Of a DNA stretch of 40,469 nt, positions 30,079 to 32,734 are shown piece by piece. The position numbers were made by a program, and so were the translations under genes. Positions within the stretch are counted from its first letter, which is position 1. Each line of letters begins with the position of its first letter. The stretch covers positions 1 through 40,469 of the forward strand of contig JALVVU010000100.1 in the NCBI GenBank assembly GCA_027023255.1, written 5' to 3'. The stretch comes from Desulfurococcales archaeon. Its GTDB lineage: Archaea > Thermoproteota > Thermoprotei_A > Sulfolobales > NBVN01. The notes under the pieces are model-generated. The model had not been told where the DNA came from, searched no databases, and saw only the letters and a list, made by a program, of their open reading frames with translations.

Positions 30079-30154
30079 ATCGCCACGTTTAATTTTATCT
30101 TAAATGACGGTAAACTCGCGATCATGGGTTACGATGCCTAGATGGATGTGAATA

Positions 30155-30164
30155 CGATTAAAGC
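30155..30164 (+). promoter_or_regulatory. TATA box of the 30188 sRNA
   Basis: CGATTAAAGC is centred about 28 nt before the terminal stem of the C/D box sRNA candidate, the distance expected for a crenarchaeal promoter. Confidence 0.45.
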
Positions 30165-30187
30165 CCTGATTCTAGGTATTAATTGAA

Positions 30188-30256
30188 GCGGTCGTATGAT
30201 GAGAAGAGGGTCTCGTGACATAATGGATGATTTGAGCCGGAAATGCTGAAGACCGC
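30188..30256 (+). ncRNA. C/D box sRNA candidate with terminal stem
   Basis: A perfect 6-bp terminal stem GCGGTC (30188-30193) and GACCGC (30251-30256) encloses the boxes. C is ATGATGA (30196-30202), an exact match to RUGAUGA; then a 12-nt guide (30203-30214), a weak D' GTGA (30215-30218), a 5-nt spacer, a relaxed C' TGGATGA (30224-30230), a 15-nt guide (30231-30245) and D CTGA (30246-30249). It sits alone between the DUF505 gene and tRNA-Gly with a TATA box in place. Targets complementary to TTTGAGCCGGAAATG or GAAGAGGGTCTC were not identified. Confidence 0.7.
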
Positions 30257-30319: not shown

Positions 30320-30398
30320 TGGTGCGGCGGCCGGGATTTGAACCCGGGACCTCCGGCTTGGAAGGCCGGCGTCCTAGACCAGGCTAGACGACCGCCGC
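30320..30398 (-). tRNA. tRNA-Gly(UCC)
   Basis: On the minus strand the acceptor GCGGCGG (from 30398) pairs with CCGCCGC, the anticodon stem CCGGC/GCCGG encloses CTTCCAA with anticodon TCC, and the T arm is CCGGG-TTCAAAT-CCCGG. Discriminator A (30323) and CCA (30322-30320) are encoded. No intron. Confidence 0.95.
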
Positions 30399-30468: not shown

Positions 30469-30903
30469 ATGAGGTGTGGTTACTTCAGATTCCTTGAACA
30501 TACAGCAGATGCTTACGTTGAGGCGACCGGGAGAACTCTTGAGGAAGCGTTCGAGTGGATGGCAAAAGGAATGTTCGAGATAATGACAGATACAAGCAAG
30601 GTCCGCCCGCTTATTAAGAAGGATTTAAGCGGCACCGGAGTTGACCTGGAAGGCGTGCTGTACAGGTGGTTGGAGGATCTATTAATACTGCATGATGCTG
30701 AAGGCTTAGTCTTCTCCGAATTTAGAGTCTACGAAGTTAAGAAGATCGGTAATGAATACACATATAAGGCAAGCGTGTGGGGTGAGGTCTTCGACCCATC
30801 TAGGCACGAGATACGTACGGAGGTAAAGGCAGTGACGTACTCACTAATGGAGGTGAAGAACGTTGACAGTTGCTGGGTACTTAGAGTAGTGTTCGACCTG
30901 TGA
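30469..30903 (+). CDS. Archease, activator of RtcB
   Basis: Archease speeds guanylylation and turnover of the RNA ligase RtcB. The 144 residues match the family: YFRFLEHTADAYVEATGRTL at the N-terminus with its conserved HTAD Asp, EEAFEWMAKGMFEIM, then LYRWLEDLLILHDAEGLVF and the C-terminal VKAVTYSLMEV. It is not beside rtcB (12032) but in the same 20-kb span, between tRNA-Gly and tRNA-Phe. Confidence 0.93.
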   Translation: MRCGYFRFLEHTADAYVEATGRTLEEAFEWMAKGMFEIMTDTSKVRPLIKKDLSGTGVDLEGVLYRWLEDLLILHDAEGLVFSEFRVYEVKKIGNEYTYKASVWGEVFDPSRHEIRTEVKAVTYSLMEVKNVDSCWVLRVVFDL

Positions 30904-30949
30904 TGCATGCCTAGGTTAAGCATGAATACCGCGCAACCCTCGTTGTAAA

Positions 30950-30960
30950 ACTTAAATAGC
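30950..30960 (+). promoter_or_regulatory. TATA box of tRNA-Phe
   Basis: The segment AACTTAAATAG is centred about 29 nt before the tRNA-Phe gene, matching the spacing seen at the other tRNAs in this window. Confidence 0.5.
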
Positions 30961-30983
30961 CACTCAAACAATCAATCCTCGGA

Positions 30984-31060
30984 GCCGCCGTAGCTCAGCC
31001 CGGGAGAGCACCCGGCTGAAGACCGGGGTGTCCGGGGTTCAAATCCCCGCGGCGGCACCA
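30984..31060 (+). tRNA. tRNA-Phe(GAA)
   Basis: The acceptor GCCGCCG pairs with CGGCGGC, the anticodon stem CCCGG/CCGGG encloses CTGAAGA with anticodon GAA (31018-31020), and the T arm is CGGGG-TTCAAAT-CCCCG. Discriminator A and CCA (31058-31060) are encoded. No intron. The 155 nt that follow, up to 31216, hold nothing I can support. Confidence 0.95.
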
Positions 31061-31216
31061 AACCCTGATTGATTCCTCCATCAAAGTTATTTAATGATAC
31101 ACGAAGCCAAGCCTCAAATACGTGTGGTTTTCCGCGCATGATCAACGACTATTCCTATATATGAGGCTCCATAGTAGAAATTCGTTTGACGTGACACGTA
31201 CCCATACTTAGTTACC

Positions 31217-31501
31217 TTAGTGTTTAGTTTGCTTCCTGACTAGGACGAAAACATTACCTCTGACATCGATTACATCAGCATTAACTTTAGAGGCAACCTC
31301 GTGAGCAATTTCCTTGATGTTTGCTCCTGCTCGCTTTAGGGACTTCATTACCCTCACTTTTATTATGCCTTCACGTTTCAACCAGGTGCGTATCTCCTCG
31401 ATTACGCCAGGTGTCACTCCGTTCTTGCCTATCCGCACGTGTGGCTCCCCGGCGATTACGCGCTTGACTTTCTCTGATTTCTTGATTTTTCCCTTAGGCA
31501 T
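31217..31501 (-). CDS. CRM-domain (YhbY-like) RNA-binding protein
   Basis: The 94-residue protein is a single CRM domain, the fold of bacterial YhbY, which is associated with pre-50S particles and RNA splicing in plants. The GKNGVTPGVIEEI loop near residue 25 is the GxxG-like RNA-binding motif; IIKVRVMKSLKRAGANIKEI and a final RGNVFVLVRK follow. Its start lies within the end of the Rpp21 gene (46-nt overlap), so the two are translated from one message. Confidence 0.88.
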   Translation of the reverse strand: MPKGKIKKSEKVKRVIAGEPHVRIGKNGVTPGVIEEIRTWLKREGIIKVRVMKSLKRAGANIKEIAHEVASKVNADVIDVRGNVFVLVRKQTKH

Positions 31502-31824
31502 GGTGTCCTCACCACGTACCCACAGTGTAAGCAGGTCTTCGTCACTATAATTTGTTTCCTATTTCTCCGTATCCTAACGCGGCATGAAACCTCCGGCACT
31601 AAGGGTACTAAGCAGTTCTTACAGACCCACCTCCTGTACTTAACTGGCTTCCTAACGTCGGCTTTGCTCAGTAGTCTTAGACCTAACGCTATGTACCTGC
31701 GTGAGAGGTTCGTCATTCCTTGCTTGAGGGCCTTAACGGCCTCGCTGTATAGTATTAACGCTCGCTGGTATGCTAGGTCCCGCTTTGCGTTCCTTAACTT
31801 TCTCCGCACTGGTTCCTCCCGCAT
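31456..31824 (-). CDS. rnp4: RNase P protein Rpp21
   Basis: Rpp21 is a zinc-ribbon subunit of archaeal RNase P and pairs with Rpp29 (rnp1 at 14951) in the holoenzyme. The N-terminal helices (LRNAKRDLAYQRALILYSEA, then LSRRYIALGLRLLSKADVRK) and two CxxC pairs at residues 68/71 and 98/101 form the family pattern. The long overlap with the CRM gene suggests tight coupling. It has its own promoter and diverges from nep1. Confidence 0.92.
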   Translation of the reverse strand: MREEPVRRKLRNAKRDLAYQRALILYSEAVKALKQGMTNLSRRYIALGLRLLSKADVRKPVKYRRWVCKNCLVPLVPEVSCRVRIRRNRKQIIVTKTCLHCGYVVRTPCLREKSRNQRKSSA

Positions 31825-31857
31825 AACTACATTGGAACTTGTAAATTAAGGCGCTTT

Positions 31858-31866
31858 GCTTTATAG
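31858..31866. promoter_or_regulatory. TATA element between rnp4 and nep1
   Basis: On the minus strand CTATAAAGC is centred about 38 nt before the rnp4 ATG. On the plus strand GCTTTATAG is a similar distance before the nep1 ATG at 31898. The two genes may share it. Confidence 0.4.
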
Positions 31867-31897
31867 AGGACTTAGCTTTCATCTAATCGGGGTAAGT

Positions 31898-32593
31898 ATG
31901 AGTGACGAGTGTGTTACAGTGATACTCGCTGAGGCAAGTCTTGAGTTAGTGCCTCAGCAAATAGCTGGGCACCCTGCGGTGGTTAAAAATGCGCGGAGGC
32001 GAGGGCGAAAACCCACGGAGACTTTACTTGATGTTTCGCTGCATTATCATGCTATGAAGCGCCTTAGTAAGAGGGAAAAGAGGGGCAGGCCAGACATAGT
32101 TCACGTTACGTTGCTGGAGCTTCTTTCTTCACCACTTAACTTAGAGGGGAAGCTGAGGGTTTACGTGCATACCTTGAATGACTACGTGTTGTTTATAGAT
32201 CCAGCAACTAGAATACCTAGAAATTACAACAGGTTCATCGGTTTAATGGAGCAATTATTTATTAAGGGGCAAATACCGCCTCAAGCTGATAAGCCCTTAA
32301 TAATAGTGAAACCAGCAACACTGAGCTCGCTTCTGAAGATGTTGGGTTTTGATAGCATAATTCTGTTGAGTGAATTGGGAGAGCTTCGAAACCCAACAGT
32401 GATTTGCTCTGAGTCCCTCGAGCGCAACGCCCCTATAGTCATAGGTGCGTTTCCTCACGGTGACTTCGAGGAGGAAACGAAGGCGTTGGCAAGAGGCGTC
32501 TATGCGATATACCCTAAGCCCCTTGAGACCTGGGTTGTGGCGTCCCGCATTACGCATGCGTGTGAGGAGCTACTGAGTATACTACCCAAGTAG
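31898..32593 (+). CDS. nep1: Nep1 rRNA pseudouridine N1-methyltransferase
   Basis: Nep1/Emg1 is a SPOUT methyltransferase that methylates N1 of a pseudouridine in helix 35 of 16S rRNA and aids small-subunit assembly. Features include an N-terminal VTVILAEASLELVPQQI, the RNA-binding KRGRPDIVHVTLLELLSSPL, NYNRFIGLMEQLF, and the knot with APIVIGAFPHGDFEEETKAL and ETWVVASRITHACEEL. A longer frame opens at 31856, but the ATG at 31898 has GGGGTAAGT before it and gives the normal N-terminus (231 residues). It pairs functionally with Cbf5, which can make such pseudouridines. Confidence 0.94.
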   Translation: MSDECVTVILAEASLELVPQQIAGHPAVVKNARRRGRKPTETLLDVSLHYHAMKRLSKREKRGRPDIVHVTLLELLSSPLNLEGKLRVYVHTLNDYVLFIDPATRIPRNYNRFIGLMEQLFIKGQIPPQADKPLIIVKPATLSSLLKMLGFDSIILLSELGELRNPTVICSESLERNAPIVIGAFPHGDFEEETKALARGVYAIYPKPLETWVVASRITHACEELLSILPK

Positions 32594-32626: not shown

Positions 32627-32734
32627 TGGTGCCGCGGCCGGGATTTGAACCCGGGTCACGGGCTGTCCACGCAGGGCCAGCTCAAGCCCTTACTCGAGAG
32701 GCCCGCATACTTGGCCGGGCTATACTACCGCGGC
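32627..32734 (-). tRNA. tRNA-Glu(CUC) with intron
   Basis: On the minus strand GCCGCGG (from 32734) pairs with CCGCGGC, and the anticodon stem CGGGC/GCCCG holds loop CTCTCGA with anticodon CTC once an insertion of 30 nt is removed. The T arm is CCGGG-TTCAAAT-CCCGG; discriminator A (32630) and CCA (32629-32627) are encoded. The body closely resembles crenarchaeal tRNA-Glu/Asp. The intron makes expression dependent on splicing endonuclease and a ligase such as RtcB. Confidence 0.9.
32665..32694 (-). other. tRNA-Glu intron at canonical position 37/38
   Basis: With cleavage after G37 and before A38, 30 nt are removed and a normal anticodon loop results. The 3' bulge would be ACA, as in cbf5, and the intron has an inner stem AGGGC/GCCCU. 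The central helix (CUCU with GUGG) is poor, with one mismatch and two wobble pairs, so the motif is relaxed and the borders could be off by a base. Confidence 0.75.

Follow-up and report, generated by a model that had tools for sequence, protein, structure and literature searches.

A divergent relative of the sR20 guide RNA with two predicted 23S rRNA targets in a Desulfurococcales archaeon

Relation to described guide RNAs and modification sites

Archaeal C/D box sRNAs are described as RNAs of about 50-70 nt that carry RUGAUGA and CUGA boxes close to their ends (PMC7994747), and for class assignment we further considered the internal D' box (CUGA) and C' box (RUGAUGA), both of which are frequently relaxed. 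In its main text, PMC4644070 names helices 68, 69, and 71 of the large subunit (LSU) rRNA as methylation hotspots, describes double guides that reach sites within 100 nt of each other, and applies a nine-pair criterion to guide duplexes, somewhat relaxed for some double guides. That main text mentions neither 1920 nor 1956; positions there are numbered after the paper's own alignment, and the supplementary site lists lay outside our search. A Thermococcus sRNA of similar name, Tko-sR20, is listed by PMC9014305. C1920 is the 2'-O-methylation site of TlyA in some bacteria (PMC12805891), and the equivalent position is given as methylated in Arabidopsis organelles (PMC8053127). The eight modified positions of Haloarcula 23S rRNA given in PMC2584109 include, in helix 69, Gm 1909 and the pseudouridines 1915 and 1917, with C1920 absent from that account. 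We found no archaeal guide for C1920 in the literature searched, and supplements outside this search may well list one.

The window analyzed here is the whole stretch of 40,469 nt (positions 1 to 40,469 of contig JALVVU010000100.1, assembly GCA_027023255.1) from a Desulfurococcales archaeon. A gathering-level Rfam scan of the window returned tRNAs only, whereas a relaxed scan gave RF01140 (sR20) as the best of 4227 families for an intergenic element on the forward strand, at 30 bits (E 7e-05) and thus below the sR20 gathering cut-off of 44 bits. The alignment spans the whole 56-position model with the boxes and both guides in register; the element differs from sR20 by four additional bases between D' and C', a relaxed C' box, and a 6-bp terminal stem. 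Among 22 homologs scanned in the same way, 17 reach E 0.5 or better against sR20, and five exceed the cut-off: L165, L166, L169, L170, and L172, which make up five of the nine family f11 loci scanned and all lie in places hit by the homolog model R1 (see below). Within the same set, L176 matched only sR3, and L190, L199, L201, and L202 gave no sR20 match. As these intermediates pass the cut-off and link the element to RF01140, we regard it as a homolog of sR20: judged by its sequence, it is a divergent sR20 relative of the archaeal C/D guide class that formally falls under the Rfam cut-off. The sRNA gene is real, ordinary, and of a known kind; it adds a guide RNA gene that the gathering-level scan misses, with specific predicted targets, C1920 and perhaps U1956. 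Like the double guides in the main text of PMC4644070, the element has two predicted sites within 100 nt, placed in a known hotspot. The comparison with TlyA (PMC12805891) concerns the same nucleotide and the same predicted modification; TlyA is a protein enzyme that uses no guide, whereas the predicted archaeal route is RNA guided through fibrillarin. If the prediction holds, these archaea would use a guide RNA, and bacteria a protein, to methylate C1920 of helix 69.

Anatomy and genomic setting of the element

A sequence-only reading had proposed a C/D box sRNA gene at 30155-30256, and the boxes and 6-bp stem that it named can all be read back from the sequence (table 1). The interpretation as a C/D sRNA gene is supported. 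The element itself begins at 30188; the span proposed from 30155 also covers the TATA-like stretch that lies upstream of it. The end boxes and length agree with the description of archaeal C/D sRNAs. The D' and C' boxes (GTGA and TGGATGA) depart from the CUGA and RUGAUGA consensus, as the same reading had noted. Most homologs have a relaxed internal D' box; in L031, L181, L182, L200, and L201 an exact CTGA occupies this register, which supports the spacing. Columns of the C box are mostly invariant in alignment A2, which comprises 30 loci. A C/D pattern of our own, run over both strands of the window, matched the 30188-30256 element and nothing else; the other C/D candidate of the sequence-only reading gave no hit.

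Table 1. Coordinates of the sRNA element and neighboring features in the window
Feature	Position	Strand	Details
TATA-like TTAAAG, possible promoter	30158-30163	+	starts 38 nt before C box
C/D box sRNA, whole element	30188-30256	+	69 nt; boxes, stem, homologs
Terminal stem, 5' arm GCGGTC	30188-30193	+	pairs with GACCGC at 30251-30256, 6 bp
C box ATGATGA	30196-30202	+	exact RUGAUGA
D' guide GAAGAGGGTCTC	30203-30214	+	part AAGAGGGTC pairs with LSU 1918-1926; predicted methyl site C1920
D' box GTGA, relaxed	30215-30218	+	register matches CTGA of L031, L181, L182, L200, L201
C' box TGGATGA, relaxed	30224-30230	+	TGA alone invariant in alignment A2
D guide TTTGAGCCGGAAATG	30231-30245	+	GCCGGAA pairs with LSU 1955-1961; predicted methyl site U1956, less certain
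D box CTGA	30246-30249	+	invariant in alignment A2
Terminal stem, 3' arm GACCGC	30251-30256	+	pairs with GCGGTC at 30188-30193
tRNA-Gly(TCC), convergent neighbor	30320-30398	-	ARAGORN, Rfam

The terminal stem beside the C/D kink-turn has the same letters across four aligned same-genus genomes and is weak or absent in many relatives. Over the homologs, flanking stems average 4.02 pairs compared with 3.21 when flanks are swapped, with none of 200 swaps reaching 4.02, and stems of at least five pairs are found in 24 of 63 distinct flank pairs. The TTAAAG segment is the same in G003 and G004, and G001 has an A+T-rich stretch at a similar distance. Across 64 distinct upstream regions, TATA-like motifs and A+T content peak some 36-25 nt upstream of the C box, the motifs being commonest at 36-31 nt, which lends mild support to the TATA-like box that had been suggested upstream of the sRNA. 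Just upstream of the sRNA, 30133-30180 forms a predicted hairpin with a 10-bp stem, which is present in G003 and G004 and not in G001.

The element lies in a gap between the stop codon of a DUF505 open reading frame (30078) and the ATG of an archease gene (30469). As had been claimed, this gap contains no protein gene, only the sRNA and tRNA-Gly, the latter being the sole ARAGORN or gathering-level Rfam call within it; tRNA-Gly adjoins the sRNA in G001, G003, and G004 too. A tRNA-Gly is also found near the sRNA homolog in loci of families f7, f8, f10, and f11, and in two loci of family f2 (L019 1408-1555, L027 1378-1549) the sRNA is preceded on its own strand, at a distance of about 15-25 nt, by a complete tRNA-Gln. 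The stretch beside the sRNA (30469-32593) encodes RNA-processing proteins: archease, a CRM-domain protein, RNase P Rpr2, and EMG1/NEP1. A further tRNA is found at 32630-32734 on the minus strand by the Rfam tRNA model (48.4 bits, own-genome search), where neither ARAGORN nor the gathering-level window scan made a call; its length suggests an intron.

Conservation and predicted 23S rRNA targets

The element is near-identical in four of the five same-genus genomes, its own included, the fifth (G002, 52% complete) giving no match. Over the whole aligned region G003 and G004 differ little from the window; in G001 both flanks have diverged and the element is kept at 94%. Loss of the boxes in close relatives had been named in advance as an outcome that would speak against the gene; we found both boxes and guides kept. 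A DNA search at E 0.01 or better matched 36 of 60 genomes, again with the own genome counted. Of the 229 genomes in the class, model R1, built from the sequences of 30 loci without structure, matched 150, with the own genome counted, or 100 of 122 when only good assemblies are considered. The remaining 79 genomes of the class gave no match to this model, and of the 20 misses given by name, 15 belong to family f5. A stricter pattern run against named genomes returned 53 stretches, 51 of them under archaeal titles (e.g., Zestosphaera tikiterensis, Staphylothermus, Thermogladius); the two bacterial stretches are probably chance matches. The double guide is thus retained across much of one archaeal order, and it should be noted that the guide-containing queries used to gather homologs partly select for guide conservation. 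G185 and G191 carry second, diverged copies (L189 and L192) with an exact CTGA D' box one base closer to the guide core; read by eye, this shift would place the predicted methylation on C1921 instead of C1920.

In C/D guides, methylation falls on the target base that pairs with the guide nucleotide five positions upstream of the D or D' box. We found no rRNA in the window's own assembly and therefore predicted targets on the 23S rRNA of relatives, where both guides place a Watson-Crick pair at this fifth nucleotide. The D' guide segment AAGAGGGTC is complementary over nine bases to LSU GACCCTCTT, which corresponds to positions 1918-1926 in an alignment with E. coli rrlB, on the 3' side of helix 69; guide position five faces C1920. 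This site is the top match inside the LSU at all seven of the relatives' loci (L032-L038) in a scan without the position-five rule. GACCCTCTT occurs once in the G020 LSU and is absent from the G020 SSU, and when LSU and SSU together were dinucleotide-shuffled 4000 times, 35 of the shuffles contained the 9-mer. The LSU of G037 and G055 reads GACTCTCTT, with U replacing C, so that one D' pair becomes G-U. Against 30 of the 42 tRNAs of the genome (sense strand), the D' guide scores at best 8.0, with wobbles, and against the G020 SSU at best 6.5.

The D guide segment GCCGGAA is complementary over seven bases to LSU TTCCGGC, 37 nt downstream of the D' target (start to start). In the E. coli rrlB alignment this target corresponds to 1955-1961, with guide position five facing U1956, and the two predicted methyl sites are 36 nt apart. 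TTCCGGC occurs once in the G020 LSU and is absent from the G020 SSU. Both targets within 100 nt of each other were found in none of the 4000 shuffles. The sequence-only reading had suggested that, with D' and C' relaxed, one guide may be weaker; the sequences give no sign of this for the D' guide, which pairs with its target over 9 bases (7 for the D guide) and has eight consecutive invariant columns in the 30-locus alignment compared with six invariant columns for the D guide.

To follow individual guide positions we used 70 loci, 30 from the DNA search and 40 chosen for spread from the places hit by model R1; two (L177 and L198) could not be parsed, and merging identical cores reduced the other 68 to 67 distinct cores. 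The parser demanded AGAGGGT and a loose D core, so D' positions 4-10 are invariant by construction, and with part of the guides demanded by both parser and homolog search, absolute conservation is overstated in these counts. Outside the imposed stretch, 65 of the 67 cores carry C at D' position 3 and 61 carry A at D' position 11. Watson-Crick pairing with 1955-1961 is kept at D positions 4-7, 9, and 10 in 64 to 66 of 67; at position 8 of the D guide, 41 cores have C and 24 have U, and either base pairs with the same G. Unpaired guide positions are freer than paired ones, yet some preference shows: 52 of 67 cores have T at D' position 2 although it is unpaired, 49 of 67 have G at D' position 12, and 60 of 67 have A at D position 3 although it is unpaired and faces G1954.

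Proposed function, alternative readings, and LSU interruptions

Taken together, we consider it very probable that 30188-30256 is a double-guide archaeal C/D sRNA, a divergent relative of sR20, predicted to direct methylation of both C1920 and U1956. The sequences compared directly show its boxes and terminal stem, its deep conservation, and its ability to pair with two 23S sites; the RNA itself would then be expressed, and L7Ae, Nop5, and fibrillarin would assemble on it. Genes for fibrillarin and Nop5 lie side by side in the assembly (G000:C82, 453-1130 and 1316-1993). Pairing of the D' guide with 23S 1918-1926 would lead to 2'-O-methylation of C1920, and pairing of the D guide with 1955-1961 to methylation of U1956, the likely effect being that a segment of the LSU on the intersubunit face is stabilized and folded at high temperature, to the presumed benefit of the ribosome.

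Several points against this reading concern the D guide. Its duplex has seven contiguous pairs, or eight with one mismatch across nine positions, and falls below the nine-pair criterion in the main text of PMC4644070; its conserved A at position 3 stays unpaired, and the 7-mer TTCCGGC appears in 1115 of the 4000 shuffles. The D guide finds an equal match at position 307 of the G020 LSU, over seven bases with position five included, so that 1955-1961 ties with this site for first when the position-five rule is applied, and other LSU sites outrank 1955-1961 when the rule is omitted. Because another LSU site matches at equal length, U1956 is less certain than C1920. The D' guide might then work as stated on its own, with the D guide serving another target or acting as an assembly aid without methylation. 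We judge this to be unlikely, though an alternative to be taken seriously, given how the homologs vary: D position 4, required solely by 1955-1961, is A in 66 of 67 cores, whereas position 11, required by the rival site, suits that site in 38 of 67, and the C/U exchange at position 8 retains pairing with 1955-1961 in 65 of 67. The proximity to the D' site speaks for 1955-1961 as well, and other RNAs offer little, with nothing above 6.0 scored pairs for the D guide among 30 of the 42 genome tRNAs (sense strand) and nothing above 6.5 in the G020 SSU.

Two further readings would take methylation, or the gene itself, out of the picture. LSU matches were obtained in 94 genomes, of which seven were set aside as unclassifiable; 27 of the 87 others have an interrupted match, at approximate places near 1913 (6), 1924 (3), 1927 (13), and 1952-1954 (13). 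The interruptions, which are probably introns, were deduced from split BLAST pieces sorted by eye, with L032, L035, and L037 alone read as sequence, and a short LSU piece is missing in some genomes (G007, G053, G091, G152, and G154). They cluster beside or within the duplexes 1918-1926 and 1955-1961, as would suit an RNA that guides no methylation and instead serves the LSU segment 1913-1954 as a chaperone or in splicing. No link between sRNA and interruptions is seen, as the sRNA accompanies 22 of the 27 LSU genes that are interrupted and 48 of the 60 that are not (Fisher p 1.0); this equal frequency leaves a splicing role unsupported, and the complete C/D anatomy with correct spacing favors methylation, making the chaperone or splicing reading highly improbable. 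Intergenic DNA that resembles a C/D gene by chance, or the relic of a gene in decay, would fit the relaxed D' and C' boxes and the unremarkable fold of the element on its own (z -1.40; 20 of 200 shuffles fold as well or better). The boxes and guides are retained in many families, and in G001 despite its diverged flanks, and this conservation makes a chance or relic origin very unlikely, to the point of being hardly credible. Building on the double-guide reading that we prefer, one could picture an ancestral double guide, kept through much of the archaeal order, that combines a TlyA-like Cm1920 with a clamp around the 23S intron cluster and so aids folding or rejoining; we regard this extension as speculative and improbable.

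A separate observation concerns family f4, in which we noted an apparent split tRNA-Gln(CTG), its 5' half preceding the sRNA homolog and its 3' half on another contig. The 5' parts are found in L109 (1440-1560, minus strand), L031, and L183, and the 3' parts in L204, L205, and L207; ARAGORN called no tRNA on L031, L109, L204, L205, or L207. Split tRNA-Asp and tRNA-Lys are named in PMC3218864, a text search of which gave no tRNA-Gln. The 5' half lies directly before the sRNA homolog in G043 and G053 and some 50 nt away in G076. Complementarity between tail and leader of the two halves spans 11, 13, and 12 nt, and the letters involved differ between the two genera.
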